Positions 22,979 through 48,700 of a stretch of DNA of 64,000 nt are shown one piece after another; position 1 is the stretch's first letter; each line of letters starts with the position of its first letter. This stretch comes from Acaryochloris sp. CCMEE 5410. Its GTDB lineage: Bacteria; Cyanobacteriota; Cyanobacteriia; Thermosynechococcales; Thermosynechococcaceae. The DNA is taken from NCBI RefSeq assembly GCF_000238775.2, contig NZ_AFEJ02000001.1, positions 3,100,001-3,164,000 on the forward strand, written 5' to 3'. The position numbers and the translations under genes are program-made. Under the pieces are notes generated by a model. The model worked only from the letters and a program-made list of their open reading frames with translations. It had not been told where the DNA came from and made no database searches.

Positions 22979-23932
22979 ATGATTATCATTGTTTCAAATC
23001 GTCGGGTGAACGAGGATCAAACCGATCACCGCTTGTTTGGAGAACGGGCGAATGTGAATGGTCTCGATGAAATTCGTTTAGCAACCGCTGACTACGATGA
23101 ACCCTCACAACGGTGGCATCTGTCCCTCGTTCCCGAAGGCGATCTAGAGGATGAAGACAGCCGCCCTAGCCACCAATTATTTCAGCGCGTTATGGCCGGG
23201 ATTCAGACCGGTCAGCATCAGAAAAACTGGGTGTTTTATATTCACGGATTTAATCAATCCATGTTAGACAATCTCAATGCTTGTCGTGAAATCCAAACCC
23301 TCTATGACGTGGATGTCATTACCTTTGCATGGCCCTCGAATCCAGGAGGGTTTGTACTTGGGGAATATCAGCGCGCGCGACAAGCCGCTAGAGCATCCAG
23401 TAATGCCCTCGATCGCACCTTAGAACTGCTCGGGCGCTACCTAGCTAGCCGTTCCCTGGTAGAGATGCGGAACTGCCAGATTAGCCTAAATCTCCTCGTG
23501 CATAGCTTAGGCAATTATTTATTTGAGGATTTTGTCCGGGATCCGGTCTTTAGTGATGAAACTCGCATCTTCGACAACATTATCTTTCACCAAGCAGATG
23601 CCGATAATCGCAACCATGCTCAATGGGTTGATCGGGTTGAGCATGGTCGCCGTATCTACATCACCCTCCATGAGGATGATTCGACCCTCAAAGCGTCCGA
23701 TATTATCAATCCGGGCCGTTTGGGCAATACCCTGGCCGGTTTAAATGCCCAACGAGCGATCTATCTCGACTTTACGAATGGTGAGAATGTCGGTCGGTCC
23801 CATAACTTTTTTGATGGCCAGATTGAGAATGCCACCATCCAAACAATTTTTATCCGTCTGCTCAATGGTCAGCGGGGAGAAACCGTTGCTGGCTTAAGCT
23901 TCGATCCCACCCTGAATGCTTTTCGGCTATAA
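22979..23932 (+). CDS. DUF900-type alpha/beta hydrolase
   Basis: The 317-residue protein has the nucleophile-elbow-like HSLGN (LNLLVHSLGNYLFEDFV, about residues 168-184) with the catalytic Ser, an oxyanion-side strand NWVFYIHGFNQSM (about 84-96), and ITFAWPSNPGG. These match the DUF900 esterase/lipase-like group. No signal peptide is present. First gene of the cluster, 92 bp ahead of the dioxygenase-like gene. In that setting it could release a fatty acid or ester for oxidation; that is inference. The late His of the triad may be in GRSHNFFDGQIEN (about 278-290). Confidence 0.85.
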   Translation: MIIIVSNRRVNEDQTDHRLFGERANVNGLDEIRLATADYDEPSQRWHLSLVPEGDLEDEDSRPSHQLFQRVMAGIQTGQHQKNWVFYIHGFNQSMLDNLNACREIQTLYDVDVITFAWPSNPGGFVLGEYQRARQAARASSNALDRTLELLGRYLASRSLVEMRNCQISLNLLVHSLGNYLFEDFVRDPVFSDETRIFDNIIFHQADADNRNHAQWVDRVEHGRRIYITLHEDDSTLKASDIINPGRLGNTLAGLNAQRAIYLDFTNGENVGRSHNFFDGQIENATIQTIFIRLLNGQRGETVAGLSFDPTLNAFRL

Positions 23933-24024
23933 CCCCATGATGTCGGTTTAGCCTCAGTGGGCTCATGACTCTGAACATTGCTGTGTGAGACCTGCATCGT
24001 TTTTGTCTTCTAGAGGAGGAATAT

Positions 24025-25776
24025 ATGTCTCGTAAACCATGGCACCAGCTCAAAACCCCCCTAGCCCTGATTAAGCTACTCCAATTCCGGAATCGACTGC
24101 GGGAAAATAATCTGCATGATACGGCTGCGATCGCACCCACAGATCACCTCCCCAAACCCAAGCCCAGTCCCGATGGTCGCCATTTTCGTGCCCGGACCGA
24201 TGATGGTAGCTTTAACGACCTAGACCATCCTGAGATGGGAATGGCTGGCACTCGGTTTGGTCGGAATGTGCCCTTACAGGATGCCTATCCCGATGAGAAG
24301 GCCCTCTTGACGCCCAATCCGCGGGAGATTAGCCGTAAGGTGATGACCCGGGATGAGTTTATTCCCGCCACGATTTTGAATGTGCTGGCTGCCGCCTGGA
24401 TCCAGTTTGAAAATCACGATTGGTTTTCCCATGGCGACAATCAAACCAAACAGAAATTTCAGCTGCCCTTGGCGGATGATGATGACTGGCCTGCAGAGCA
24501 TCATCCCTTAGAAGTGGGTAAAACCGCCATTGATGAGACCCGCAAAGGGGATGAAAGCAGTGGTCCTCCCACCTTTATTAACACTGTCACCCACTGGTGG
24601 GATGGGTCTCAAATCTACGGTAGTGACAGCGAAACCGTTGCCAAACTCCGCTCCCATAAAGATGGCAAACTCACCATGGGAGACGATGGCCTATTGCCAT
24701 TAGATGATGGCGGCGTGGATTCCACCGGCTTTAACGATAATTGGTGGGTGGGGCTGTCCTTACTGCATACATTATTTGCCAAAGAGCATAATTTTATTTG
24801 CGATCGCCTCAAAGCGGAGTATCCATCCTGGTCCGATGATCAACTGTTTGACCAAGCCCGCCTGATCAATGCTGCCTTAACCGCAAAAATCCACACGGCA
24901 GAATGGACCCCCGCTATTTTGCCCCTACCTGCCACCGATATCGCCCTCAACGTCAACTGGGCGGGCTTCCTCGGGGAAGATTTTAGATATCTCTTTGGAC
25001 ATATCGGCGAAGGTGAACTGCTGAGCGGCATCCCAGGCTCCTCGACAGACCACCATACGGCTCCTTACTACCTAACGGAAGAATTTGTGTCCGTGTATCG
25101 GATGCATCCCTTAATTCCAGATGACTACCAATACTATGACCTGCAGGGAAAACTGCTGCAGGAGAACGACTTTATGGCCTCTTCCGGCAAGCGGACCCGA
25201 GCCTTGGTGGAGGAGGTGGGGATGGACAATCTGTTCTACTCTTTGGGCATTACCCATCCAGGGGCCGTAACCCTCCATAACTTCCCTCGGTTTTTGCAGC
25301 TTCACAAGCGGGATAACGGTGAAGTCTTCGATCTAGCCGCCGTCGATATCCTCCGAGATCGCGAACGGGGAGTGCCTCGGTATAACCGCTTCCGAGAGTT
25401 AATCGGACGTAGCCGGGTTAAAAGTTTTGAGGAAATTACCAGCAATCCTGTCTGGGCCAAGGAACTACGGGAGGTCTATAACAACGACATCAACGCGGTT
25501 GATCTGATGGTGGGCATGTTTGCCGAAGATCTACCTGACGGCTTTGGCTTTAGCGACACCGCCTTTCGCGTCTTTATCCTGATGGCTTCTCGCCGTCTGA
25601 AAAGCGATCGCTTCCTAAGTAAAGACTACCGAGCTGAAATTTATACCCCCTTCGGCTTGGAATGGATCTATCGCAACAATTTCATTACCCTCCTCAAGCG
25701 TCACTACCCCAAACTGGCTCCTGCCCTAGTCGGCGTCAGCAATGGCTTTGCCCCTTGGCGCAATCTTAGTCATTAG
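24025..25776 (+). CDS. Alpha-dioxygenase/cyclooxygenase-like haem enzyme (animal peroxidase superfamily)
   Basis: The 583-residue protein carries the motifs of fatty-acid dioxygenases. The distal-His region is WIQFENHDWFSHG (His131). Others are WWDGSQIYGSDSET (about 191-204), LLHTLFAKEHNFICDRL (247-263) and AKIHTAEWTPAI (287-298). VYRMHPLIPDD carries Tyr358 and His361, matching the spacing of the radical-forming Tyr and proximal His in plant alpha-DOX and COX. Retention of this Tyr argues for oxygenation of a fatty acid rather than simple peroxidase action. No signal peptide is seen. A strong ribosome-binding site (GAGGAGG) precedes the ATG. The product (hydroperoxide position) cannot be read from the sequence. 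Confidence 0.9.
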   Translation: MSRKPWHQLKTPLALIKLLQFRNRLRENNLHDTAAIAPTDHLPKPKPSPDGRHFRARTDDGSFNDLDHPEMGMAGTRFGRNVPLQDAYPDEKALLTPNPREISRKVMTRDEFIPATILNVLAAAWIQFENHDWFSHGDNQTKQKFQLPLADDDDWPAEHHPLEVGKTAIDETRKGDESSGPPTFINTVTHWWDGSQIYGSDSETVAKLRSHKDGKLTMGDDGLLPLDDGGVDSTGFNDNWWVGLSLLHTLFAKEHNFICDRLKAEYPSWSDDQLFDQARLINAALTAKIHTAEWTPAILPLPATDIALNVNWAGFLGEDFRYLFGHIGEGELLSGIPGSSTDHHTAPYYLTEEFVSVYRMHPLIPDDYQYYDLQGKLLQENDFMASSGKRTRALVEEVGMDNLFYSLGITHPGAVTLHNFPRFLQLHKRDNGEVFDLAAVDILRDRERGVPRYNRFRELIGRSRVKSFEEITSNPVWAKELREVYNNDINAVDLMVGMFAEDLPDGFGFSDTAFRVFILMASRRLKSDRFLSKDYRAEIYTPFGLEWIYRNNFITLLKRHYPKLAPALVGVSNGFAPWRNLSH

Positions 25777-25786
25777 GGCCTGTTCG

Positions 25787-26704
25787 ATGAAACACCAAAC
25801 CGAAATCCAACAATACTGGCCAGCGGCCCAGGACTTTGAGCCGTTGCCCACAGACTATCCCACGTGGTCAGCACAACAGAAGCAAGCCTTTCTCTGGGAT
25901 GAACGCATCCTCCAATCTATCTATGACCAAAATCCACCCATTCCTCGGATCAATATTGTCGGGTTAATCTTGACCCCGCTCATGATCAAAATGGATCGCC
26001 TGGAAGATGAAGCCCCCACCCGTTGGCGCAAAGCCATCCACCCCCACGGCGCCGTGGCCAAAATCAAGTTTGTCCCAGCGGGCGACAGTCCCTATACCGG
26101 ACTATTTAAAGGCGCAGACTACGGATTGCTGAGGGCTTCTCTCACGGGCGATCCGGAAGATCGGGGATTTGCCCCTGGTCTAGCGATTAAATTGCTGGCA
26201 GATGGCCAACCTTCCGGTAACTTTTCTGCCCTCGTGTCCTTATCCGGTCAAGGCCAAAACTATAATTTCCTGGCCCACCGGTTCTCCAATATTGTGCCTG
26301 TGGCTCAAGAATTTGGTCCCCAATTCACGAACCTGATTTTTCGCCGGGTCACCAAACACCCTACCCGTATTGACCTTCAACACTTAGGTTCTGCTACCCA
26401 GCAGGGTCAGGCCGAAGCACAGCCCCATACCCCCACCCAAGTCTTTCTAGTCCCCAATCCAGACCTGCAGTTTGCCGAAAGTCCCCATGACTTTCGAGCA
26501 GATCTGGCCCACATTCCCCCAGGTACCCAGTTGTTTTCTATCTATGCAACAGATGCGGTCGATCCAGACGGGGAAACGATGACGGCTGGCCATCAACCTC
26601 AAGCCCAACTAATCGGACATTTGGAGACCACCTCCGAGTTTGTGGCTTCCTTCTACGGCGATAGTCAGCTCTTCTTTCGGCATCAGCGCTTCCGTAACCA
26701 GTAG
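25787..26704 (+). CDS. Catalase-fold haem protein, possible hydroperoxide-metabolising enzyme
   Basis: 305 residues from the ATG at 25787, 10 bp after the previous stop; an in-frame ATG at 25742 would overlap that gene by 35 bp. The core resembles the minimal catalase fold. IHPHGAVAKIKF (His85 as candidate distal His) lines up with the His-x-x-Gly-x-Val-Ala-Lys of the catalase-related gene at 62663. GLFKGADYGLLRASL and RGFAPGLAIKLLADG follow the catalase pattern of an Arg-containing strand and RGFAxKF. LFSIYATD (Tyr253) is a candidate proximal ligand, although the usual Arg four residues earlier is absent. I infer a relative of allene oxide synthases or hydroperoxide lyases acting on the dioxygenase product. 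Confidence 0.65.
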   Translation: MKHQTEIQQYWPAAQDFEPLPTDYPTWSAQQKQAFLWDERILQSIYDQNPPIPRINIVGLILTPLMIKMDRLEDEAPTRWRKAIHPHGAVAKIKFVPAGDSPYTGLFKGADYGLLRASLTGDPEDRGFAPGLAIKLLADGQPSGNFSALVSLSGQGQNYNFLAHRFSNIVPVAQEFGPQFTNLIFRRVTKHPTRIDLQHLGSATQQGQAEAQPHTPTQVFLVPNPDLQFAESPHDFRADLAHIPPGTQLFSIYATDAVDPDGETMTAGHQPQAQLIGHLETTSEFVASFYGDSQLFFRHQRFRNQ

Positions 26705-26731
26705 TTCGTCACTCTGCCACAAGGAAATCCT

Positions 26732-28240
26732 ATGACCTCAGACATTATCTTTCAGCCCTTAGAGTGGCGCAATCTAACGGTTAAAAATCGCATTTTTCGG
26801 TCCAGCATCTCAGGGCGTTGGGATAACTACGATGGTTCGGGCACCCAAGCCCGGATCAATTGGGAAGAGCAGTTTGCCCAGGGTGGCGTCGGTGCCATTA
26901 TCTCGTCCTATACCCCCATTCATATTGAAGGGCGGATTGTACCAAATGCCGCCATGATTGACTCGGACGACCGCATTCCCTTCTGGAGAAAGGTCGGCGA
27001 GACGGTTCATCAGCACGACTGCAAGTTTATCCTCCAGCTCAGTCATTCGGGACGTCAGCGCGATATTGATGGGGTCGAAAATACGGTTCCCGATTCCTTT
27101 AAGCCCACACCTGCCCTGAGTGCAACGACCCTCTCAGAACAGATTCATGGGTTTCGCTGTCGCCAAATGACCCGGACAGAAATCAAGGAGACGGTGCAAC
27201 GGTTTGCGGATGGGGCTCGGCGGGCTCGGGAGGCCGGGCTAGATGGCGTGGAGTTACATAGCTCCCATGGCTATCTGATTACCCAATTCCTCAGTTCTGG
27301 CATCAATATTCGCAATGATGACTATGGGGGGTCCCTCGAAAATCGCTATCGGTTCCTGCAAGAAATTGTCCAGGCCATTCGCCAAACCGTCGGTGACGAT
27401 TTTCATCTTCAGGCCAAGATTAGTGCCGTGGACTATAACAATGTCTTGCCCTGGGAACGGAGGGGCAACACCTTGTCTGAGTCGATTCAAGTCTGTCAAT
27501 GGCTGGAGCGGGATAGCGTGGATGCTCTCCATATTTCTCGGGGCAGCACCTTTCCCCATCCCCTATTACCCGCAGGTCCGTTTCCCTTTAAGATTGCCAC
27601 CTCCACTTACGACACGATGATTTCTAGTGCCCCGTGGCGGACCCTTCTCAATTACTTTCTGTTTCGCAGTCCCTTACTTCAGCCCTTCTTTAAATGCATT
27701 TGGAATCGCTTGGAGCGGCATTGGCAGGCTCCGGTTAAAGGCGATCGTCTCTCGTCAGATTCTCTGTCCCAATTGATGCAAGAGCATATCTCGGCCCATG
27801 AGTTCCAAGCCCTATTGGCTCGCTACCAAGGCACGGTTATGGAAGATGCCCAGGCCATTAAGGAACAGGTCAATATTCCCGTCATTTGTACCGGCGGCTT
27901 CCAGCAGGCCTCTTTTATTCGGCAAGCGATTGAGCAGGGTTTCTGTGATGGTGTCACCCTTGCCCGCCCCCTGGTCGCCAATAAGGATCTGGCCCACCAG
28001 TTGCAGGCAGGAAACGATATTCCCGAGCGCCCTTGTACCTATTGCAATCAATGTTTAGGAAGTTATCTGGAATATCCCTTGGGCTGCTACGAACGCCGTC
28101 GATATTACCAGCGCTCTATCACTGGCGCAGATCAAACGGAGCAGGATAAAGCAGCGCGCGAAGCCCATGACGCCATGATTCAAGATGCTATGCGGGTGTA
28201 TAGCCCACCGCCCTTTAGCCCGTCCAAGCCAACGGCATAA
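26732..28240 (+). CDS. Old-yellow-enzyme-type NADH:flavin oxidoreductase with Fe-S motif
   Basis: The 502-residue TIM-barrel flavoprotein starts IIFQPLEWRNLTVKNRIFRS. The substrate-binding pair is in ELHSSHGYLITQFLS (about residues 172-186), with NDDYGGSLENRYRFL and, near the end, TGGF and DGVTLARPLV for FMN phosphate. CTYCNQCLGSYLEYPLGC (about 433-450) is a four-Cys cluster as in 2,4-dienoyl-CoA reductases, although the FAD/NAD(P)H domain that follows in those enzymes is absent. About 90 extra residues lie between barrel strands 6 and 7. It should reduce an activated C=C bond; plant OPR3 does this to a cyclopentenone oxylipin. A good ribosome-binding site (AAGGA) is present. Confidence 0.9.
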   Translation: MTSDIIFQPLEWRNLTVKNRIFRSSISGRWDNYDGSGTQARINWEEQFAQGGVGAIISSYTPIHIEGRIVPNAAMIDSDDRIPFWRKVGETVHQHDCKFILQLSHSGRQRDIDGVENTVPDSFKPTPALSATTLSEQIHGFRCRQMTRTEIKETVQRFADGARRAREAGLDGVELHSSHGYLITQFLSSGINIRNDDYGGSLENRYRFLQEIVQAIRQTVGDDFHLQAKISAVDYNNVLPWERRGNTLSESIQVCQWLERDSVDALHISRGSTFPHPLLPAGPFPFKIATSTYDTMISSAPWRTLLNYFLFRSPLLQPFFKCIWNRLERHWQAPVKGDRLSSDSLSQLMQEHISAHEFQALLARYQGTVMEDAQAIKEQVNIPVICTGGFQQASFIRQAIEQGFCDGVTLARPLVANKDLAHQLQAGNDIPERPCTYCNQCLGSYLEYPLGCYERRRYYQRSITGADQTEQDKAAREAHDAMIQDAMRVYSPPPFSPSKPTA

Positions 28241-28272
28241 CCTCGGATGCAAATTGCAAGCGTGATATCCCA

Positions 28273-29769
28273 ATGAGCAGTACACCCTTTTTCCCAAAAG
28301 TCTGTCGTAACTTCAAGCGGTTAGCCCTAGGGCTGGTTAGCCTAGTTTTAGTGATCGTTTTATGTCTGGCATGGCCCCTGTTGACGGCGCGGTCCCCTCA
28401 ATACACGGACATTACCGACCATTTTAAATATGGCTCGATTGGCGGTGCCTCCACCATGGGAATTCCCTATTGGATTTGGCAAGTGATGCCGGTGATGTTC
28501 CCGGAGTACCTACCCACGGAGGACTACGTCACCCCTGGAACTGGCTATACCCAGCTCGGCTTTATTCAAGAACCGGGGCAAGATCTGCCCATTGGGTTTG
28601 CCAAGGATACCCAATTAGGGTTGGAAGTGGTGACCAACAATTGTGCCCTTTGCCATGTGGGTAGTGTTCGCAACACCTCTGATGGCCTACCCCAAGCCAT
28701 TCCGACGATGCCGTCTAACACTGTTAATTTGTCGGCCTATTTTCGCTTTATCACCGGCGTTGCCAATGATCCTCGGTTTAATGCTCGGGAAATGATGCCC
28801 TATATCAAGGATTTGGGAGCCGATCTGAATCCCTTGCAGTCTCTGCTCTATCGCTATATTGCTATTCCCCAAACTCGGGCCTTGCTCAGTATCCAAGCCG
28901 AAAAGCTCAGTTTTTTATCGGATCAGCCCCAGTACGGACCGGGGCGAGTAGACACCTTTACCCCCTATAAAACCCGTACCTTTAATATCAATCTAGACGA
29001 CCTCCCTCCTGAAGAAATTGAGGGAGCGGCCAGCGACTTCCCTAGTGTTTGGCAGCAGCGCCCCCGGGAGGGTATGCAGCTCCATTGGGATGGTGATAAT
29101 ACCTCTGTAGCAGAACGGAATAAGAGTGCTGCCTTAGCCCTGGTCTCCCCCACCAATATTAATTTGGATGCCATTACCCGAGTGGCTGACTGGTTGTTGG
29201 ATCTCCCGGCCCCGCCTTATCCCTATCCGGTAAATGAAGAGCTGGCTGCCCAGGGGCAATCTATCTTTGCCAACACCTGTGCCAGCTGCCATGCTTTTGA
29301 CGGTCCAAGGGTAGGGACCGTGACACCCATTGCAGAAATTGGCACCGATCCAGGCCGCTTAAATTCTTATACCTATGAATTTGCCTCGAATCAGTACACG
29401 CTGTTTGCTGGGATTACCTATAAAGGCGAAGATCAGCGGTTTACCCACTTCCGCAAAACCCACGGCTATGCCAACCATCCCCTCGACGGATTGTGGTTGC
29501 GATCGCCTTATCTCCACAACGGCTCAGTCCCGACCCTAGAGGATCTGCTCGATCCTCCCGAACAGCGCCCAGCTAAGTTTTATCGGGGCAATGATGTCTA
29601 TGATCCAGACAAAGTGGGGTTTGTGGCGGACGTCGCTACAGCTAACGGCAGCAAATTTTTCGAATATGATACGTCGCTGCCGGGGAATGGCAAGGAAGGC
29701 CATCTCTATGGAACCACTCTATCTCAGTCAGACAAAACAGCTCTGATCGAGTATTTAAAGACCCTTTAA
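28273..29769 (+). CDS. Membrane-anchored dihaem cytochrome c, RoxA-like (1)
   Basis: The 498-residue protein has an N-terminal signal anchor (LGLVSLVLVIVLCLAWPLL, about 17-35) and two haem c sites, CALCH (about 117-121) and CASCH (about 336-340). The C-terminal block LDGLWLRSPYLHNGSVPTLE and YDPDKVGF is typical of RoxA/RoxB rubber oxygenases and related dihaem proteins. It should act in the periplasm or thylakoid lumen as an electron carrier, peroxidase or dioxygenase. Its paralogue at 30364 has the same ends (EGHLYGTTLSQSDKTALIEY against QGHLYGTNLPEKDKATLIEY). It is the fifth gene of the cluster. Confidence 0.87.
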   Translation: MSSTPFFPKVCRNFKRLALGLVSLVLVIVLCLAWPLLTARSPQYTDITDHFKYGSIGGASTMGIPYWIWQVMPVMFPEYLPTEDYVTPGTGYTQLGFIQEPGQDLPIGFAKDTQLGLEVVTNNCALCHVGSVRNTSDGLPQAIPTMPSNTVNLSAYFRFITGVANDPRFNAREMMPYIKDLGADLNPLQSLLYRYIAIPQTRALLSIQAEKLSFLSDQPQYGPGRVDTFTPYKTRTFNINLDDLPPEEIEGAASDFPSVWQQRPREGMQLHWDGDNTSVAERNKSAALALVSPTNINLDAITRVADWLLDLPAPPYPYPVNEELAAQGQSIFANTCASCHAFDGPRVGTVTPIAEIGTDPGRLNSYTYEFASNQYTLFAGITYKGEDQRFTHFRKTHGYANHPLDGLWLRSPYLHNGSVPTLEDLLDPPEQRPAKFYRGNDVYDPDKVGFVADVATANGSKFFEYDTSLPGNGKEGHLYGTTLSQSDKTALIEYLKTL

Positions 29770-29821
29770 GGTCCGTATCATACCTATCTATTTTTACCTA
29801 CCTGAAGTTGGAGCCAGTCAA

Positions 29822-30256
29822 GTGAGCACACAAAATCCCTATGCAAAATGGTTTGGCTACGTCGTTTGGCTGGGCATCGCCGTCAATCTTCTATTTATTA
29901 TTCCTACCTGCTTTTTCCCGGAATGGCTGCTCTCTCTCCTCAGGATGACTATCCCTATCCCAATTATTTGGGTGCGAGCAGCAGGGTTATTGCTCTTGGA
30001 AATTAGCATTCTATATATTCCGGGAGCGCTGGATCCGTATCGATATCGAGCGACGGCATGGATGTCAGTTCTGGTCACTCGGGGTGGTGGAGCCTCGTTT
30101 TTCCTAATTGCCGTGTTGTTTTTTGGTCAAGAACTGGGTTTTCTGTCTATTGCCATTGTGGATCTGATTTTTGGGGTCACAGAGGGCATTTTGCTGTATT
30201 TGGCGATGCAAGACAAAGCGGCTCTTGCAAACCAATCCTATTCTGAGTCGGTCTAG
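29822..30256 (+). CDS. Small four-helix membrane protein between the cytochromes
   Basis: The 144-residue protein starts at GTG 29822, with GGAG 9 bp upstream. Four hydrophobic helices lie at about residues 10-32, 44-62, 78-98 and 104-126. Few charged residues are seen apart from DPYRYR in the second loop and the tail KAALANQSYSESV. I do not recognise a named family. Its place between two dihaem cytochromes suggests a membrane partner, perhaps a quinone-facing anchor, but no haem or quinone motif is visible. Confidence 0.75.
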   Translation: MSTQNPYAKWFGYVVWLGIAVNLLFIIPTCFFPEWLLSLLRMTIPIPIIWVRAAGLLLLEISILYIPGALDPYRYRATAWMSVLVTRGGGASFFLIAVLFFGQELGFLSIAIVDLIFGVTEGILLYLAMQDKAALANQSYSESV

Positions 30257-30363
30257 TTGGCCGACAAACGGGGCCAAATTGGGGCCTTAAAAGCCGAGTT
30301 CAAGCAGATTAGCAAGAGGGTCGAATGCCCGATCGTTGCTGACGTTATCAAGGAATGAAGACT

Positions 30364-31797
30364 ATGGGTGCGCTAACCTCAAATCTGGGCAAAAAGATCG
30401 CCACCACCTTACTGATTCTGGGCCTGCTCGTGGGCACGGTGGTCTATATTGGCTGGTACAATCTGCTGCGCGAAGTGGACACCTATATCGAATCGCCAGC
30501 CGAACATTTTAAGTATGGATCAATCGGGACAGAGAATGACCAAGGTGTTCCTTACTGGATTTGGATGGTGCTCCCCCGCCTCTTTCCGGAATATTTACCC
30601 GGACCCAATGGCTATACCTCCTTAGGCTTCACCTGGGAACCCGGTCAGGAAACCCCGGTAGGTGTCTCTAAAAAGACGATTGGCTTTCCTCGCCAAGGGA
30701 TTACCTGTGCCGTCTGCCATTCAGCAACCTATCGCAAAGTACCGGAGGACAATCCCATCATTGTGCCAGCTGGCCCCTCGGTAAAATTTAATTCCTTGGG
30801 CTATGTGCGTTTTCTTCAAGCTTGTGCCCAAGATCCCAGATTTACAGCGGACTACATTCTGCCTGAGATTGAATATAACCATTCCTTATCAGCTTTTGAG
30901 AAGTTACTCTACCGATTTCTGATTATTCCCACGACCCGCAAGGAAATGCTGGAGCAGGGCGAATCCTTTGCCTGGAGCAATTCTCGACCCAATTGGGGAC
31001 CGGGGCGTATCGATCCCTTTAACCCCGTGAAATTTAATATGCTAGACATCCCTATAGATGACACCATTGGCAACTCCGATATGATGTCGCTTTGGAATCA
31101 AAAGCAACATCAAGGATTTGCTCTGCACTGGGATGGTTTGGAAACCTCCCTCACAGAAACGGTGAATACCGGTGCCCTGGGAGATGGAGCCACTCGTAAA
31201 TCCATCAATATTGAAGGGCTACAACGGGTCGAAAAATATATCACGGAGCTGGATCCACCCAAATTTCCCTTTGCCATTGATCAAGCTGCCGCCGATAAGG
31301 GCAAAAAGGTATTTGACCAGCACTGCGCCACTTGCCATGCCTTTGGCGGTGAGCGCACGGGCACCGTTATCTCCCAGCAGGAAGTCGGCACCGATCGCCA
31401 CCGACTGGACATGTGGACCCAAGAAGCAGCGGATAAATACAACGCCTTTGCGGAAGGGTACGACTACGACTTTGATCAGTTACGAAAAACCGATGGCTAT
31501 CTCTCCGTGAGTCTAGATGGGTTGTGGTTACGAGCTCCCTATCTGCACAATGGGTCAGTACCTAGCCTGCAAGATTTACTCAAAACCTCAGATGCCCGGA
31601 CGCCAGTGTTTTATCGAGGCTACGATGTCTATGACCCCGACGCCGTTGGCTTTATTTCGCAAGGTGCGGAAGCTGAAAAGGTTGGATTTAAGTACGACAC
31701 GTCCTTAGTAGCAAATAGTAATCAGGGTCATTTGTACGGAACCAATTTACCTGAAAAAGATAAGGCGACATTAATTGAATATCTCAAAACCCTGTAA
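30364..31797 (+). CDS. Membrane-anchored dihaem cytochrome c, RoxA-like (2)
   Basis: About 477 residues from the ATG at 30364 (MGALTSNLGKKIATTLLILG). An ATG at 30355 is in frame, but the AAGGA sits only 0-2 bp before it and 9 bp before 30364. It has an N-terminal signal anchor and haem sites CAVCH (about residues 116-120) and CATCH (about 318-322), with GLWLRAPYLHNGSVPSLQDL and VYDPDAVGF near the C-terminus. It is paralogous to 28273, but the stretch before the first haem differs (KTIGFPRQGITCAVCH). It probably works with that protein in the periplasm. It is the last gene of the cluster. Confidence 0.87.
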   Translation: MGALTSNLGKKIATTLLILGLLVGTVVYIGWYNLLREVDTYIESPAEHFKYGSIGTENDQGVPYWIWMVLPRLFPEYLPGPNGYTSLGFTWEPGQETPVGVSKKTIGFPRQGITCAVCHSATYRKVPEDNPIIVPAGPSVKFNSLGYVRFLQACAQDPRFTADYILPEIEYNHSLSAFEKLLYRFLIIPTTRKEMLEQGESFAWSNSRPNWGPGRIDPFNPVKFNMLDIPIDDTIGNSDMMSLWNQKQHQGFALHWDGLETSLTETVNTGALGDGATRKSINIEGLQRVEKYITELDPPKFPFAIDQAAADKGKKVFDQHCATCHAFGGERTGTVISQQEVGTDRHRLDMWTQEAADKYNAFAEGYDYDFDQLRKTDGYLSVSLDGLWLRAPYLHNGSVPSLQDLLKTSDARTPVFYRGYDVYDPDAVGFISQGAEAEKVGFKYDTSLVANSNQGHLYGTNLPEKDKATLIEYLKTL

Positions 31798-31910: not shown

Positions 31911-34253
31911 TCAAAACAAACCCTGCAATATTTCCTGATGCAAGTTAGTCGCTTTGGCAGAGGCGAGACAAGCGCAGAGCAATGTGCAGCCATAGTAATA
32001 GTGACTGAGGGCCGTTACTGCTTCAGCATCATCATAGGCCAGGGTTGGAAATCGATATTGTTTAGACCCCAGAAACGGATGCTGTTCTTGATCTGGCTGA
32101 GAGATCTCGGCCACAAGTTTGCTTTTTCCGAGAATCGCCTGGATGGGCGATAACTGGGCGATCTGGTCCAGTCGGCTCACTTCACCTTTAAAGTGCTGCT
32201 GACAAGCTTGAGAAAATCGGTCTGGATATTGGAGAACATAGTCAAAAAATAAAGCTCGGACCTGATCAATCGTCTCAAGTTGCTGATTGGTTTGGTGCAG
32301 ATCGGGTTGATGCCAAACATGAACGAGGGCATCGGCAAAATCAAAGTGCTGACCCGCTTTGAGATTTTTTTTCTGGGTTGGATTGAGATTGCATTTGAAG
32401 CAGTGGGCTAAAACTAAGTCATGGTTGAACTGATAGCCCATCTCAAACACACGACTAATTCGACGAGCAGGATCAAATCGGTAATAGTAGTCTGAGCAAA
32501 AGGCACTGATGGTGAGCGCCGATTCCAATGGATGCTGGTCTAAAATGTCGCGAGCGAGAGGGGGACTATCTGCATGGGTCTGATAGAGATAGATGATACG
32601 GGTTGCGATCGCACCTCCCGCTTCCACCTGGGCCAACGCCCTGTCATTCTGCTCTTGCAAGTAACCCATCAGTTTGGCTTTGAACCTCTGTAAAAAAGCC
32701 TCACCTTGCTCAGATCGGAGCATCTGAGCCACAAACAAAAACACCTCATACCAATCCGAATTAAACAGATGATGGTCGCGAAACAGAAGGGCAAAGGCTG
32801 ACTCAGCATCCGCTTCAATCTCGTCTAAGAGCGCTAACGCCACAAAATACTCATGAAAAGACAGATGGGAGAATCGATAATGGTTCCAAGAATCTTGGGT
32901 AATCAGTCCGTAGCTTGCCTCCAGCTCTCGGAAAAACCCAGTCGGCGATAAGCCACCGTGATCTTGTAGATCAATTCCAGCCCGACGGATAAAATCTCTA
33001 GACGCTGGAAAAACCTTGCCCTCATCGGTAAATGCTGTTCTAGCAATAGCCTTGAAGAGGGACAATTTCTCTTGATAGGTTTTGCTGGGGATGACTGCCA
33101 CCTCTGGCAAAATATGGCTATGGTTCAAATCTCCCAGGATATGCTCAAAAGCCATTTCATAGATTTGATGGCGCTGCTGGGGGTGTTCTCGGGCGGTTTC
33201 AAAAGCAATACAGAGCAGGGTGAGCAGTAAAGGCGTACTGGCTAAATCAAACTCATGTCTAAAGTTGGCTTCGTGGGTGGTTAGCCATGTGATAAAAGAT
33301 TCAGCTTGAGTCGGGTTATCGTGAAACCAGTTCCGAGAAAATATTCGAATCTGATGATCGGTAAATTGCTGAATCGTGGCTTGGGTGAACTGTTCATAGA
33401 CCTGACGACTGGCTGCGGTCCGGCAAGTGATCACCACTCGATTTTGATAGAACAGGTCAAATTCTTTTAAAGCCAAGGCTTGAGCTTGAGAAAGGGGAAT
33501 TTCATCTTCGCCATCTAACAACAGCAAAACGGAACCCTGATCAAAGAGCCGCCGGAGCAAAGCCGGATCCAGCCCACAGGTTTGCTGATACATTTCACTG
33601 ATGCAGGCAAAGAGGCTCTGCTGTTTCAACAATTGAGCAATATCTCGCAGGGCGACAAAAATGGGCACCCATTGCGGCAGCAAATATCCCTGTATACATT
33701 GCAGAGCCAAGTACTTTAAAAACGTCGTTTTTCCTGATCCGGGCAGCCCTAAGAGATGGAGGTGGGGATATTTTGCAACTGCCTCTTCCCCGGTCAGCGA
33801 CTCGGACAAGGGGATACTACTCTGCCCCTGACCTCCGGCTAAAGGATAAACATTATTTCCCTGTGACACCCGCACTTGGGTATAGATGGCGTCTACGGGC
33901 CGCGCCTTAACCATACCTAGGATGCGTAATGTTCCACATCGCTGCTCAATATAACGCTGCAATTGTTGTCGCGCTTTGTGTATATCTGATCCTTTCGCAA
34001 CGCTGTGGGGGACAGGAGTAACCCCTTCCGCAATCTCCTGCCAAGGAATCTCCAAAAAATCACAGATCTCTTCAAACTTCTGAGACCAGATTTTTTCCCC
34101 TCGCAGAAACTTACCCACCACAGACCGATCAGTTCCTAAGATTTGAGCTAATTCCTGCCGAGTCAGTCCACGCTGTTTAAAGGTCTGCTGAGCTTGTACT
34201 AAGCCTTTTTCAGAAGTTTGCAAAGAGGGTTTCCCCCGATTGGATGGTGCCAT
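31911..34253 (-). CDS. XRE-type HTH plus NACHT NTPase (STAND protein)
   Basis: The 780-residue protein has an N-terminal helix-turn-helix (GLTRQELAQILGTDRSVVGK, about residues 29-48) and a linker. The NACHT NTPase has a P-loop in HLHLLGLPGSGKTTFLKYLA (about 160-178), Walker B VLLLLDGEDEIP (about 240-251) and sensor VVITCRTAAS. A NACHT-associated helical region and an alpha-helical C-terminal part with SFHEYFVALALLDEIE follow. Bacterial NACHT proteins include antiphage sensors. Others are regulators, and the HTH here fits either. A single transcription unit, convergent with the cytochrome cluster. Confidence 0.88.
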   Translation of the reverse strand: MAPSNRGKPSLQTSEKGLVQAQQTFKQRGLTRQELAQILGTDRSVVGKFLRGEKIWSQKFEEICDFLEIPWQEIAEGVTPVPHSVAKGSDIHKARQQLQRYIEQRCGTLRILGMVKARPVDAIYTQVRVSQGNNVYPLAGGQGQSSIPLSESLTGEEAVAKYPHLHLLGLPGSGKTTFLKYLALQCIQGYLLPQWVPIFVALRDIAQLLKQQSLFACISEMYQQTCGLDPALLRRLFDQGSVLLLLDGEDEIPLSQAQALALKEFDLFYQNRVVITCRTAASRQVYEQFTQATIQQFTDHQIRIFSRNWFHDNPTQAESFITWLTTHEANFRHEFDLASTPLLLTLLCIAFETAREHPQQRHQIYEMAFEHILGDLNHSHILPEVAVIPSKTYQEKLSLFKAIARTAFTDEGKVFPASRDFIRRAGIDLQDHGGLSPTGFFRELEASYGLITQDSWNHYRFSHLSFHEYFVALALLDEIEADAESAFALLFRDHHLFNSDWYEVFLFVAQMLRSEQGEAFLQRFKAKLMGYLQEQNDRALAQVEAGGAIATRIIYLYQTHADSPPLARDILDQHPLESALTISAFCSDYYYRFDPARRISRVFEMGYQFNHDLVLAHCFKCNLNPTQKKNLKAGQHFDFADALVHVWHQPDLHQTNQQLETIDQVRALFFDYVLQYPDRFSQACQQHFKGEVSRLDQIAQLSPIQAILGKSKLVAEISQPDQEQHPFLGSKQYRFPTLAYDDAEAVTALSHYYYGCTLLCACLASAKATNLHQEILQGLF

Positions 34254-35477: not shown

Positions 35478-35544
35478 TCTGCTCCACACAATTTCCCCAT
35501 CAAATTTAGCGTTGTTCGATACAGGCAATGAGAGGTATTTTGCG

Positions 35545-36966
35545 ATGACTCAGAAACTCATTCATACCCGCAAATTAGAGACCAGCTTGGCTCAGTTAGT
35601 GGAACCGACACCTTCTCCCTGGACCATCGAGCGTCCACTCAAAGACGCCTTGCCCCCAATTCTATGGGGTTTAGGATTACCTCTGACTGTCGCTGTTTTG
35701 GGTAGTTTAGTTAGCATCTGGTTTCTAAAGTCTTTTCTGGTCATTTGTAAACCCAACGAGGTCGTGATTCTGGCAGGCCGCAAATGGCAGACGCAGGGAG
35801 GACAGCGCCTAGGCTATCGAGTGCTCACGGGGGGACGGGCGATTCGGATCCCGATTGTAGAAACGGTCAAACGGATGGATGTGACAACGATGGCAGTCCC
35901 CGTAGAAGTCCATAATGCTTACTCTAAGGGCGGTATTCCTCTCCATATTCAGGCGATCGCCAATATCAAAATTTCCAGCGATTCACGGGTGGTGGGTAAT
36001 GCGATTGAACGGTTCCTTGGCCACAAGCGGACCGAAATTATTCGAGTCGCCCAAGAAACTTTGGCTGGATATTTGCGGGGGGTGGTGGCAACCCTGACCC
36101 CCGAACAGGTGAACGAAGATCGGCTTCAGTTTGCTGAGCGAATCGCCTCAGATGTGAGCCGAGAGCTGCGAACCCTAGGACTTCATCTCGATATTCTCAA
36201 AATCCAGAGCGTAGCAGATGATGTGGACTATCTCAGCTCCATCGGACGGCAGCGAATTGCCATGATTCTACGGGATGCCGAGGTGGCTGAGTCCAATGCC
36301 CTCTCCATGGCAGAGCAAATAGAGGCTGAGTGCCAAGAACAGGCAGAAGTAGCTCAGACTCAGGATCGCACCGTAATTCTAGAGCAAGAAAACCAACTCC
36401 GCAAAATCAAAGCCAAGCTAGAGCGACAGGCTCGTTCGGAAGAAGAAATTACTGTGGCCGCCACCCATGAGCGACGGGCTAAAGTAGAGCAAATTTTACA
36501 GAAACTGCGCGCTGAAGTAGAGCGGCTGCGGTTACAGGCTGATCAGATCTTGCCAGCCCAAGCCCAACAGCAGGCAGCAGAACTCCGACGGCACGGAGAC
36601 GCTGCAATTCTGGCGGAAAATGCCCAGGCGGCGGCACAGGTCAACGACATGTTGGCGGCGGTGTGGCAAGAAATTGGCACCGACGCCTCGCAAGTGTTCT
36701 TGATCCAGCAAATTGAAACCGTGTTGCGGGAAGCAGTCCAGATCCCTGAGCGGCTCCATTTGCATCAGGTCAACGTAGTGGACAACGGCGATGGGGAGGC
36801 CGTTGCTAGCTTACTAAAGGTTTACCCCCAGGTGGTGCGCCAGTTTCTAGATAGTCTTCACCACACCTTGGGGATTGATGTTGTGGGCACCTTGACGCAA
36901 GCCCATGAGCCAACGTCTTTTCCCCAACAGTCCTTGACTCACCATTTATCTGAAAAAGGAGCGTAA
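35545..36966 (+). CDS. Flotillin-like SPFH protein (1)
   Basis: 473 residues from the ATG at 35545, chosen because GAGAGG lies 9 bp upstream. Its hydrophobic hairpin is GLPLTVAVLGSLVSIWFL (about residues 42-60). The SPFH/band-7 domain follows with ICKPNEVVILAGRKWQTQGG, MDVTTMAVPVEVHNAYSKGG and GIPLHIQAIANIKI. It then has a long coiled coil rich in Glu/Arg/Ala (EEEITVAATHERRAKVEQIL). Flotillins assemble membrane cages or microdomains. The second flotillin begins 2 bp after this stop, so hetero-oligomers are likely. Confidence 0.9.
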   Translation: MTQKLIHTRKLETSLAQLVEPTPSPWTIERPLKDALPPILWGLGLPLTVAVLGSLVSIWFLKSFLVICKPNEVVILAGRKWQTQGGQRLGYRVLTGGRAIRIPIVETVKRMDVTTMAVPVEVHNAYSKGGIPLHIQAIANIKISSDSRVVGNAIERFLGHKRTEIIRVAQETLAGYLRGVVATLTPEQVNEDRLQFAERIASDVSRELRTLGLHLDILKIQSVADDVDYLSSIGRQRIAMILRDAEVAESNALSMAEQIEAECQEQAEVAQTQDRTVILEQENQLRKIKAKLERQARSEEEITVAATHERRAKVEQILQKLRAEVERLRLQADQILPAQAQQQAAELRRHGDAAILAENAQAAAQVNDMLAAVWQEIGTDASQVFLIQQIETVLREAVQIPERLHLHQVNVVDNGDGEAVASLLKVYPQVVRQFLDSLHHTLGIDVVGTLTQAHEPTSFPQQSLTHHLSEKGA

Positions 36967-36968
36967 TC

Positions 36969-38264
36969 GTGGAACTGATCACTTTACTACTCGGCCTCAG
37001 TGGACTTAGCCTCGTGGCTGGGTGGAGTGTAACGAAGAACTTCTACTGCATTTGCCAACCCAGTGAAGTGCTGATCTTTGCGGGGCCACGCACGCGGCTA
37101 ACCAACGGCCAAACGATGGGCTATCGCCTGGTGAAAGGGGGCAGTAGTTTGCAGATGCCGCTGTTAGAGCAAACCTTTCGCATGGACTTAACTAATATGA
37201 TTATTGATCTCCAGGTGACGGGAGCCTATTCCAAAGGTGGTATTCCGCTGACGGTCACGGGAGTTGCCAATATTAAAATTGCAGGCACCGAACCGACTAT
37301 TCATAATGCCATTGAGCGCCTCTTAGGTAAAAAACGGGCAGAGGTGGAACAGCTTGCCAAAGAAACCTTGGAAGGGAATTTACGAGGTGTTTTAGCGAGT
37401 TTGACCCCTGAACAAGCCAATTCCGATCAGATTGCCTTTGCTAAAAGCCTCCTGGAGGAAGCCGAAGCGGATCTAGAAAAGTTGGGGCTGCTCCTCGATA
37501 GTTTACAGATCCAAACCATTTCCGACGAGGTGAGCTACTTAGACTCTTTGGGGCGTCAACAACAGGCCGAGTTGATCCGGGATGCCCGCATTGCAGAAGC
37601 GAAGGCAAAAGCCGAGTCGCAGATTCAAGATTCTGCCAATCTGCGTCGTACCGCTCTCCGCCAACTTCGACGGGATGAGGAAATTGCGAAGGCTGATGCG
37701 GATAAGCGGGTTAGAGATGCGTTAACTCGGCGAGTGGCCGCCATTGAGGAGGTGGAATCTGTGGTGGGGGTGCAGGTGGCTCGCGTCCAGGCCGAGGCCG
37801 CAGTAGAAACAGAGCGGATTCGTCAGGTGGAACAGCAGCTCCAGGCGGATGTGATTGCCCCAGCAGAAGCAGACTGTCAGGCTGCGATCGCAACCGCCAA
37901 AGGCAAAGCCGCCCAGATTATCGAAGAGGGCAAAGCTCAAGCTACTGGTACGCGCCAGTTGGGTCAATCCTGGCAAGCGGCGGGCGCAGCAGCGCAGGAC
38001 ATTTTCATGTTTCAGCAGCTTCATATTTTGACCAAGCTGATGGCGGCAAGCGTCCCGGATGTGAGTGTTCAGAATGTTACGGTGATTGATGCCCAACGAG
38101 GAGCCACTGCCACCAAACTGGCTGCTTTTCTAGAACAATTCCAGCAGGCCACGGGCATGGACATGCAACAGGTGCTAGGGAAATTGACGTCCCCAGAGAC
38201 CTCTACAGAACCGTCATGGCCCAAGGTTGAGCCGGGATCTGATCTCTTGGAGGCCGCCTCATGA
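36969..38264 (+). CDS. Flotillin-like SPFH protein (2)
   Basis: The 431-residue protein starts at GTG 36969 with AAGGAG upstream. It has a single N-terminal hydrophobic helix (ELITLLLGLSGLSLVAGWS), an SPFH domain (CICQPSEVLIFAGPRTRLTN; GAYSKGGIPLTVTGVANIKI), and a coiled coil (RRDEEIAKADADKRVRDAL). It is about 40-50% alike by eye to the first flotillin in the SPFH region. It overlaps the kinase gene by 4 bp (ATGA), which implies translational coupling and points to the kinase acting on or with the flotillin assembly. Confidence 0.9.
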   Translation: MELITLLLGLSGLSLVAGWSVTKNFYCICQPSEVLIFAGPRTRLTNGQTMGYRLVKGGSSLQMPLLEQTFRMDLTNMIIDLQVTGAYSKGGIPLTVTGVANIKIAGTEPTIHNAIERLLGKKRAEVEQLAKETLEGNLRGVLASLTPEQANSDQIAFAKSLLEEAEADLEKLGLLLDSLQIQTISDEVSYLDSLGRQQQAELIRDARIAEAKAKAESQIQDSANLRRTALRQLRRDEEIAKADADKRVRDALTRRVAAIEEVESVVGVQVARVQAEAAVETERIRQVEQQLQADVIAPAEADCQAAIATAKGKAAQIIEEGKAQATGTRQLGQSWQAAGAAAQDIFMFQQLHILTKLMAASVPDVSVQNVTVIDAQRGATATKLAAFLEQFQQATGMDMQQVLGKLTSPETSTEPSWPKVEPGSDLLEAAS

Positions 38265-45706: not shown

Positions 45707-48700
45707 CTACCGATCTTGTGGTATTTCGGGCAACTCTGGATTATATATTTCGTGGTACTTCGGGTGGACCCAGAGAAACTGTCGTCGTCTATCTTGAACT
45801 CGCTTCAGTCCCCCAAAATAGGGGTCTTCTTGTCTAATACGTTCCTGCAGTAACCTTAAAGGAATGCCTTCTAACTGTTTAGATTCACCATACAAATTCG
45901 ACAAACCCCCTTGGTTTGATAATCCTTTCTCACCTTGCATTAGCATATTTCCAGCGTCACCACTAGCTTGAAGCAAAGCATTAAATGATTTCTGTCCAAG
46001 ATCGAGATTTTCTTCGATAGCTTTGTAAGATGGGTCATCCAAAGACCACTGAGCAACTGAACGTGCAACGGGGAGGATTAATGAAAGGATTCTAGCAGTA
46101 AATTTAGCATAAGGAGCGACTCGCAAAAGCCATTCACGAGGCTGCTCAAGAAGATATGAACCACATTTGGAGTTGTTAGCTAGCTGAGGTACAGGAAGGC
46201 GCGAATGTGCGCACCAGAGGGTAACTCTAACTTTAATTTTCGCCCAGCCCATTTCAGCCCACTGCTCTGCATTATTAGGGATAATGCTATAAAGTCGAGG
46301 GGCATCTCTAGCATCATCTGCTAATTCAGCCATCAACTTAGAGAATTGCTCATCTGCTTGGCTCATTAGTATTTTCAGATCAGTGTGCAATTCTTGGTAA
46401 TTATTCTGAACAGCGCGATATATAAGTACTTGACCTCGCCTCATTTCAGCTGATTGAGAAGCAAGTTTCTCATCAAGCAGGATTGAAAAATCTTGACTAG
46501 TAGAGGAAGGCGCTTGAGACAAGAGAGTATCAATGTTCTGCCATTCGTCACAATCAGGAATTGGGCAGGGGTATTCAGGACGCCCACGATTGCGACTTTC
46601 AATCAACTTACTAATTTCAAACAGACCTAAGCCTGGTTCATTTTTCCCACAAGGTTGCTGGCACGGCACAGTAATCTGACAGCGCAGTCCTTTCCAAAAG
46701 TTCTCGACTAGCCATTTTACTTCTTCACTGAGATGCTGCAAGAAGTATTGAGGATATGTAGCACGAACAGTAATACGTATATCGTTACCTATAAGTTCGA
46801 GAAAGGCCCTACCGTTATAAGTATCGTCAAGTATGAGACCTCTCTGCCAGTGGCAGTTTCTAGTATTATCTTTGCGACCAAGAGAGTAGCGATGCAAACG
46901 GACAATCAGTTGATATAAAATGCCTTCAGCCATCCCGGGTAATCCAGTATTCGCATCAACAATGCGGCAAACTTGGGCACGTTGGATTTCATTAGAATTA
47001 GGCTCTACTTTCCAATATTCCGAGAGCTGCTGAGGACGATTTCCAGGAACAAGTTGGGCAATTAAACTCGTTGGTTCTGCATGAGTCCCAGATTCGATGA
47101 CACGATAAGTAAGATCAAATCTTTCCATTAATCGTAGAAAGATTGGATGAATAGATGGATCGTACTGTTCAGTCTGCGGACGAGCCAAATCATTCCAAAG
47201 CTGCCCAAGATGACGGTGTGTGACAAGACCACTTTGTTTTTTTACCTGCTCATCTTCAAAGGCAAAGCTGATAGCCTTACTCAACCAGTCAGCTTTGAGA
47301 ATAACGATATCTTTTAAACTCTCATCATTACCATAATGTATAAAATGTCCCAACTCATGTGACATGGAAGCGAAAAGTTTAGTCTGGCTTTGATCCAAGC
47401 CACGATCTAGACAGAATCTGGCAAAATTGCTGTAGGAAAGGTATGGTTCTCGAATATTAGATAAGGCTTCGCGAGTGCGCTTATAACTCGCGGCAACTTT
47501 ACGTCCCATACCTGGAAGAGTTGAAGCAACTCGTGCGATTTCAGCTTTTAATTCATCTATGCCAGCACCCGTCTTACTATCCACATGATGAAAGCTGACA
47601 AGTACCTCACTAAACTGATCACCTAGAGCTATTTCATCAATGTATGCTTGGCGTTCTTTTGGACCACCGTGAGTAGCAACAACTAAAATACGGGGACGTT
47701 CATCTGGTCGATTAATATCATAAGCACGATGTTTAATTAACCGAGACCAATATTCCACAAAACCTTGCTCTGGTCCCTCACGGGGCTTCCAAACTATGAG
47801 ATATATAGCAGGGGAACTGAAGAAGAGCTGGTGAGTAGGGCGATATATGGGTTGTCCACCAAAATCCCAGGCGTTGAGGGTGATTTCTACGTTTGTCACT
47901 GAAGGGTGTTCTAGACAAACAGCACGAGTTTCGATGCCATGGGTTGTATCTCGATTCTCAATCCATGCATCACCACGTAATGCACCAAGTAGACTACTTT
48001 TTCCTACCGCTCCTTCGCCAACAAGAATGAGTTTAGCTTCATATAGTGCTAATGATTCTTTGGCTCGTTCACGAAGATATTGCAAAATAGCATTCTTACC
48101 CTGTGCTTCAAGAGCAGACAGTTCAACGTTAAGAGGATTATCTTGAAGATTAAGAGAATTAAGATTAACCAATCCATCAAAGAAATCAGGTAGGCTAGTC
48201 AGTCGATTACCGGAGAGGTCAAGCCAAGTAAGATTGGTCAGTTGGCCAAATTCTTCAGGTAGGCTAGTCAGTTGATTACCGGAGAGGTCAAGCCTAGTAA
48301 GATTGGTCAGTTGGCCAAATTCCTCAGGTAGGCTAGTCAGTTGATTACCGGAGAGGTCAAGCCTAGTAAGATTGGTCAGTTGGCCAAATTCCTCAGGTAG
48401 GCTAGTAAACCTATTGCGTTCAGAAAAAGTTGAACCAAGTCCTAATTCAGTGAGGTTGATAAGTTGGGAAATGCCCTTTGGCAAGCTGGTCAACCCATTA
48501 CCAGCACAGTTCAGTGAATTAAGCTTAGTTAGTTGAACAAGAATTTCAGGCAGACAAACTAGTTGATTTCCAGCAACATTCAACGAATTAAGATTAACCA
48601 GTTGCCCCAACTCTTTGGGTAGTCTAGTGAGCTTATTAGAATTGAGGTTTAAGTGTGTAAGGTTGATCAGCTGACCGAGTGTCTTAGGTAAGCTGACAAA

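Follow-up and report, generated by a model that had tools for sequence, protein, structure and literature searches.

An accessory cluster built on a fatty-acid alpha-dioxygenase in Acaryochloris, a probable modular oxylipin-type system

Bacterial oxylipins mediate signalling in Pseudomonas aeruginosa. In the cyanobacterium Acaryochloris sp. CCMEE 5410 a run of seven genes, encoding among others a putative lipid hydrolase, a fatty-acid dioxygenase, an old-yellow-enzyme (OYE) reductase and two dihaem cytochromes, raises the question of whether they form a lipid-oxygenation pathway and, if so, of which kind. The initial annotation of the window (the whole stretch of 64,000 nucleotides analysed) had matched the first four genes, in order, to the steps of jasmonate-type synthesis. 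The best explanation, to which we give a probability of roughly 0.6, is that the cluster is an accessory, modular bacterial system for fatty-acid oxygenation of the oxylipin type.

The seven-gene cluster

An ORF check confirmed seven open reading frames (A to G), all on the + strand, at 22979-31797, with the boundaries of the initial annotation. The same-strand, short-gap arrangement also held, the intergenic gaps from A to G being 92, 10, 27, 32, 52 and 98 bp. The genes are:

22979..23932, + strand, gene A: DUF900 alpha/beta-hydrolase, 317 aa, VHSLG nucleophile motif at 174; PF05990, E 3.5e-12
24025..25776, + strand, gene B: fatty-acid alpha-dioxygenase, 583 aa; An_peroxidase PF03098, E 3.4e-114
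25787..26704, + strand, gene C: probable divergent catalase-related protein, 305 aa, the alpha-dioxygenase partner (alignment A6)
26732..28240, + strand, gene D: OYE family reductase, 502 aa; Oxidored_FMN PF00724, E 2.5e-63
28273..29769, + strand, gene E: RoxA-like dihaem cytochrome, 498 aa; PF21419
29822..30256, + strand, gene F: membrane protein, 144 aa, about four predicted TM segments by hydropathy (alignment A5)
30355..31797, + strand, gene G: second RoxA-like dihaem cytochrome, 480 aa; PF21419

The family calls made earlier for genes A, B, D, E and G agree with these Pfam matches, and the predicted TM segments of the 144-aa product fit the 4-helix protein described. In a promoter and terminator scan of the cluster, signals were not in excess of those in shuffled sequence.

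The surrounding genome is cyanobacterial (8.09 Mb). Among named genomes of the collection searched, the nearest is Acaryochloris sp. IP29b_bin.137, which keeps all seven genes in unchanged order, its alpha-dioxygenase being 98% identical to gene B. The cluster is accessory: it is absent from several genomes of the same genus, with an alpha-dioxygenase remnant in one (G002) and interrupted genes in another (G006, a low-coverage MAG). Genes B to G are found together again in divergent cyanobacteria, and the arrangement therefore exceeds chance. Co-conservation, proposed as a check on the initial annotation, was borne out for these six of the seven genes and failed for the DUF900 gene, which was found only in Acaryochloris.

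Gene B, the alpha-dioxygenase

By sequence, gene B is a plant-type alpha-dioxygenase (alpha-DOX), nearer alpha-DOX than COX: its best match in the PDB is the rice alpha-DOX 4kvj (E 5.8e-115), and the best COX match reached only E 1.8e-17. The distal H131, catalytic Y358 and proximal H361 align with H157, Y379 and H382 of the rice enzyme, so that the annotated Tyr-x-x-His is present, as Tyr358-x-x-His361. H290 and R524 align with rice H311 and R559, which we take to be the carboxylate-binding residues. All five residues of this catalytic set are invariant in alignment A1. Rice numbering is that of the 4kvj alignment minus three residues, which fits H157 and H382 of PMC8720084, and 4kvl carries Phe at the Tyr379 position. 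Since gene B is an alpha-DOX with the full catalytic set, it is predicted to form a 2-hydroperoxy fatty acid or the Cn-1 aldehyde. Characterised cyanobacterial alpha-DOXs convert fatty acids to fatty aldehydes via the 2-hydroperoxide, according to PMC8720084. The terminal motif of cyanobacterial 10S-DOX (GRxxSxIPAxxARxIGxDAFxQA; PMC13049297) is absent from gene B, the corresponding alpha-DOX region reading GFGFSDTAFRVFILMASRRL.

CalDOX, LepDOX and CsDOX are of the same family as gene B and have the same catalytic residues. In the parts of PMC8720084 and PMC9305512 consulted they are treated as single biocatalysts, with partner genes not described there, whereas gene B is clustered. Gene B shares 66-69% identity with homologues in Calothrix sp. 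PCC 6303 and Leptolyngbya sp. PCC 7375, though these may not be CalDOX and LepDOX themselves.

Gene C, the alpha-DOX partner

Gene C is probably a divergent catalase-related protein. Its start at 25787, as annotated, is the best choice because homologues lack the 15 residues upstream. The catalase fold that the initial annotation had assigned found mixed support. Pfam, phmmer and profile searches gave no Pfam family, no PDB sequence match and no catalase (PF00199) match, but hhalign against catalase-related domains gave a probability of 68.7% (E 4.5e-5, 63 columns, distal-haem region; control 0.1%), pairing H85 with the catalase distal His and R116-x-S118 with the catalase R-x-S. This distal His and the following R-x-S (H85, R116, S118) are invariant in 28 sequences, and the invariant residues of alignment A6 further include N158 and N160. 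A comparison by hhalign with the single catalase-like protein of NGR234 (L208:7883-9181) gave no match.

Structure prediction was divided. AF2 model 1, of low confidence (pLDDT 52), has the catalase-related 3e4y as its top Foldseek match (E 0.029), whereas the better model (pLDDT 72) has no Foldseek match; a viral fold library also gave none. As the two models disagree, the fold is uncertain, with moderate support from hhalign and weak support from the pLDDT 52 model. The proximal R-x-x-x-Y haem-ligand helix was not found in gene C, the C-terminus of which is LFFRHQRFRNQ (alignment A6), whereas the catalase-related domains fused to alpha-DOX end with R/K-x-x-x-Y. At the distal haem gene C has Ile84-His85 in place of the Thr-His of fatty-acid-hydroperoxide catalase-related enzymes (cAOS/HPL), a hallmark of these enzymes according to the title of reference 158 in PMC10813956.

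Fusions of alpha-DOX to catalase-related domains, with the catalase part N- or C-terminal, occur in a cyanobacterium of the window's family (G015), in two Mycolicibacter genomes and in Rhizobium phaseoli (L032:163-3228, L097:9938-12802, L106:9812-12838, L177:5918-8746). Their presence in three phyla shows that alpha-DOX and catalase-related proteins do pair up in general, and supports without proving the same identity for gene C.

A separate family of about 300 aa, with no Pfam match, adjoins alpha-DOX (L038:8322-9218, L174:10793-11698) or is fused to it (L079:9851-12697) in filamentous cyanobacteria and alphaproteobacteria, where it may replace gene C.

Hydrolase, reductase and dihaem cytochromes

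Gene A is a putative lipid-releasing hydrolase. A copy 77% identical is present in L027/L050, with no match at the other loci compared. The gene is kept at its cluster position only in Acaryochloris, and several other loci bear another lipase. Gene D is predicted to be an OYE of the Fe-S type, having, besides the PF00724 match, the four-cysteine motif C435-x2-C438-x2-C441-x10-C452 (CxxCxxC at 435), which is invariant in 16 homologues (alignment A3). The nearest PDB families are NADPH dehydrogenase/YqjM and 2,4-dienoyl-CoA reductase; the OPR type is not nearest in the PDB ranking.

Genes E and G encode dihaem cytochromes, as annotated, with two CxxCH motifs each. Gene E has an N-terminal TM/signal anchor, CxxCH at 124 and 336, WDG at 272, PYLHNGSVP at 412 and GHLYG at 476; the corresponding motifs in gene G are at 118 and 324, 259, 395 and 458. 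Both score above the 150-bit cut-off of NF040606 (189 bits for E, 167.5 bits for G), a family that NCBIfam names di-heme cytochrome c peroxidase. Against the NCBIfam models of RoxA/B/C they reach 52-76 bits, with cut-offs of 900-1000, and thus fall short of the rubber-oxygenase threshold. The RoxA core is nevertheless present, namely the haem-1 CxxCH, a Trp aligned with W302, the haem-2 CxxCH, PYLHNGSVP and a C-terminal His aligned with H641, with Leu at the position of RoxA F317 in both proteins. At three loci (L029, L035, L195) the second cytochrome is shortened to about 235-250 aa and keeps the first CxxCH only. Gene F has no Pfam family, and its homologues adjoin homologues of gene C as well as cytochromes.

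The oleate-diol synthase of P. aeruginosa, PA2077/PA2078 (FadCcp; PMC4496055, PMC5155153), consists of tandem exported RoxA-like dihaem proteins acting on fatty acids. Compared by shared motifs only, genes E and G have in common with it the CxxCH pairs, the PYLHNGSV signature and the paired genes (PMC4496055), here parted only by gene F. They differ in being shorter than PA2077/PA2078 and in being set among an OYE, a 4-TM protein and other dioxygenases.

Distribution and modular architecture

Across 291 surveyed genomes of the class, with calls at >700 bits for alpha-DOX and >300 bits for gene C, alpha-DOX was found in 18 genomes and gene C in 12. All 12 gene C-positive genomes also have alpha-DOX, within about 2 kb (Fisher p 3e-17, a value that overstates the number of independent events because the surveyed genomes are related). 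The family of Calothrix sp. PCC 6303 provided 13 further gene C genomes; alpha-DOX adjoins in 12, and in the thirteenth the contig edge intervenes. Genes of the C family are thus present in 25 surveyed cyanobacterial genomes, with alpha-DOX alongside in each one where the flank is present. No alpha-DOX lies near two distant gene C homologues (G110, G483), and a homologue 33% identical stands alone on a Pseudomonas veronii plasmid. Many alpha-DOX genes occur without gene C, OYE or cytochromes.

Of the 291 genomes, 8 have an OYE of the gene D type (>430 bits); the E/G cytochromes (E <= 1e-30) occur in 7, each of which also has the OYE. The cluster joins two modules, one of alpha-DOX and gene C, the other of the Fe-S-type OYE, two RoxA-like cytochromes and the 4-TM protein, and each is found without the other. 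Two genomes of the window's genus (G001, G005) have the OYE-E-F-G block without alpha-DOX, flanked on one side by a lipoxygenase (LOX; PF00305, E 1.7e-58) and on the other by a large cytochrome and a patatin-like phospholipase. On rhizobial plasmids the order is OYE, cytochrome, a protein of ~143 aa, cytochrome, large cytochrome, GMC oxidoreductase and patatin.

LOX, patatin and GMC genes are likewise swapped around the first module. The order alpha-DOX, C, GMC, patatin is seen in Calothrix PCC 6303, in G328 and in ten genomes of one genus, in the same family; within this set patatin was not seen in one genome, and in another alpha-DOX lies past the contig edge. At several other loci gene C is followed by the 4-TM protein and an unknown protein of ~440 aa, and in some by a DyP-like protein. 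In G149 a LOX gene stands directly after alpha-DOX, and a single genome, G083, unites LOX, the 4-TM protein, both cytochromes, OYE, gene C and a divergent alpha-DOX. Among Acidobacteria MAGs the OYE adjoins alpha-DOX, in one case with a RoxA-like protein also (OYE-DOX-RoxA-like). The co-conservation of six genes, and the independent loci with lipoxygenase or patatin and GMC, bear out the earlier view of a functionally coherent lipid-oxygenation cluster.

Proposed pathway and alternatives

The computed evidence covers the gene content, the family and catalytic residues of the alpha-DOX, its link with gene C, the division into two modules, and the exchange of LOX, patatin and GMC; it gives good support to a modular lipid-oxygenation cluster built around alpha-DOX. 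What we propose for the hydrolase, for each catalytic step past the alpha-DOX, for the sequence of steps and for substrate and product would run as follows. The hydrolase (DUF900 here, patatin elsewhere) would release fatty acids out of membrane lipid, and the alpha-DOX would put O2 on C2 to give the 2-hydroperoxy fatty acid. Gene C may keep this 2-hydroperoxide from simply decaying, by converting it in a controlled manner to either the Cn-1 aldehyde or the 2-hydroxy acid. The OYE reductase could saturate an activated C=C or otherwise reduce a carbonyl product, although an alpha-DOX product alone would give it nothing evident to act on, and the fatty acid would need a further oxidation elsewhere. 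The exported pair E and G, with the 4-TM protein, might act in the periplasm, with unsaturated fatty acids or the corresponding hydroperoxides as substrates, by analogy with the 10S-dioxygenase/diol-synthase pair of P. aeruginosa.

A fuller version, which we hold tentatively and at somewhat less than even odds, is that of an undescribed, modular and probably horizontally mobile bacterial oxylipin system. In it, dioxygenases (alpha-DOX, LOX) and lipases (DUF900, patatin, alpha/beta hydrolase) would be exchangeable parts around a standard processing block made up of the Fe-S-type OYE, the 4-TM protein and two RoxA-like dihaem enzymes, and 2-hydroperoxy fatty acids would be handled by an obligate partner lacking the usual catalase proximal ligand. 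The locus gives alpha-DOX defined partners, across phyla it connects a single processing block with three unrelated types of fatty-acid oxygenase (alpha-DOX, LOX, dihaem RoxA-like), and it makes the product testable by lipidomics.

The same genes could instead serve in defence against lipid peroxides, with the cytochromes, gene C and the OYE mainly destroying hydroperoxides and reactive enals, the dioxygenases supplying or marking damaged fatty acids, and no signal or dedicated product being made. OYEs commonly detoxify enones and enals, the family name of genes E and G is that of a peroxidase, and a DyP-like peroxidase is present in some of the loci with alpha-DOX, gene C and the 4-TM protein. 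The committed dioxygenases (alpha-DOX, LOX) and lipases at the same loci, however, make peroxides rather than remove them, and we consider defence unlikely. Less probable again is that two independent modules merely travel together, alpha-DOX and gene C making aldehydes and OYE-E-F-G belonging to another pathway. That either module occurs without the other would fit, but where OYE-E-F-G has other partners these too include a lipoxygenase and patatin, the OYE stands beside alpha-DOX in the Acidobacteria MAGs, and G083 holds the genes of both modules together with LOX.

The jasmonate-type reading (dioxygenation, allene oxide, cyclisation, OPR-type reduction) did not survive and is very improbable. 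A hydrolase, a dioxygenase, a possible catalase-related protein and an OYE do follow one another in the order it requires, but the dioxygenase is of the alpha-DOX type, the 2-hydroperoxide of which cannot enter the allene-oxide route and so is no jasmonate precursor; the cluster has no LOX, where the jasmonate route uses a 13-LOX, and no allene-oxide cyclase, gene C has neither Thr-His nor an identifiable proximal Tyr motif, the DUF900 hydrolase is confined to Acaryochloris among the loci compared, and gene D, with its Fe-S motif, is of the YqjM/dienoyl-CoA reductase type and not OPR-like. Cleavage of isoprenoid or rubber-like polymers driven by genes E and G, suggested by their RoxA core with its Trp and C-terminal His, was rejected as scarcely credible given RoxA/B/C scores far below cut-off, the replacement of F317 by Leu and partner genes at related loci that concern fatty acids.

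Comparison with known systems

Some parts of the oxylipin-type system that we favour have characterised relatives, on which point the initial annotation, which knew of no characterised system of like composition, needs amending: the cyanobacterial alpha-DOXs and PA2077/PA2078 described above, and a tandem in Nostoc punctiforme. In the literature collection searched, no paper combined alpha-dioxygenase, patatin and cyanobacteria, and none combined oleate diol, di-heme, lipoxygenase and cyanobacteria.

The Nostoc punctiforme tandem, as outlined in the citing passages of PMC9579011 and PMC13049297 (Brash 2014), consists of a 10S-DOX and a catalase-related 10S-hydroperoxide lyase. As in the window, a haem dioxygenase gene is followed immediately by that of its catalase-related partner; compared by these descriptions, gene B differs in being of the alpha-DOX type without the 10S-DOX terminal motif, and gene C in being highly divergent. 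The catalase-lipoxygenase fusion of Acaryochloris marina, an allene oxide synthase according to the passage of PMC10813956 that cites it (Gao 2009), likewise couples a dioxygenase with a catalase-related domain, but it uses LOX, carries Thr-His and is a different gene from B and C. Plasmid pNGR234a of Sinorhizobium fredii NGR234 (L208:7016-13936) has RoxA-like, catalase-like, di-haem peroxidase and patatin genes in a row and, unlike the window's cluster, no alpha-DOX or OYE in the stretch examined.

Neighbouring loci

Directly past the cluster end, on the opposite strand, lies a gene for a NACHT-domain protein with an N-terminal helix-turn-helix. It is followed by two adjoining SPFH/Band 7 genes and a protein kinase gene, by a bacterial Roco-family protein and, 31 kb downstream of the cluster, by a second oxylipin-type locus formed by the window end and its flank:

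31911-34253, - strand: NACHT-domain protein
35512-38264, + strand: two SPFH/Band 7 (flotillin-like) genes, then the protein kinase gene
45707-49126, - strand: LRR-Roc-COR protein, 1139 aa
62663-64000, + strand, continuing past the window (L239:2664-5081): start of an 805-aa catalase-related/lipoxygenase fusion, PF00305 and PF00199
L239:5185-6882, just outside the window: animal-haem-peroxidase gene
L239:7123-8838, just outside the window: second LOX-like gene

The catalase-related/lipoxygenase fusion has the Thr-His motif (ATHSYG) and the architecture of the Acaryochloris marina fusion.
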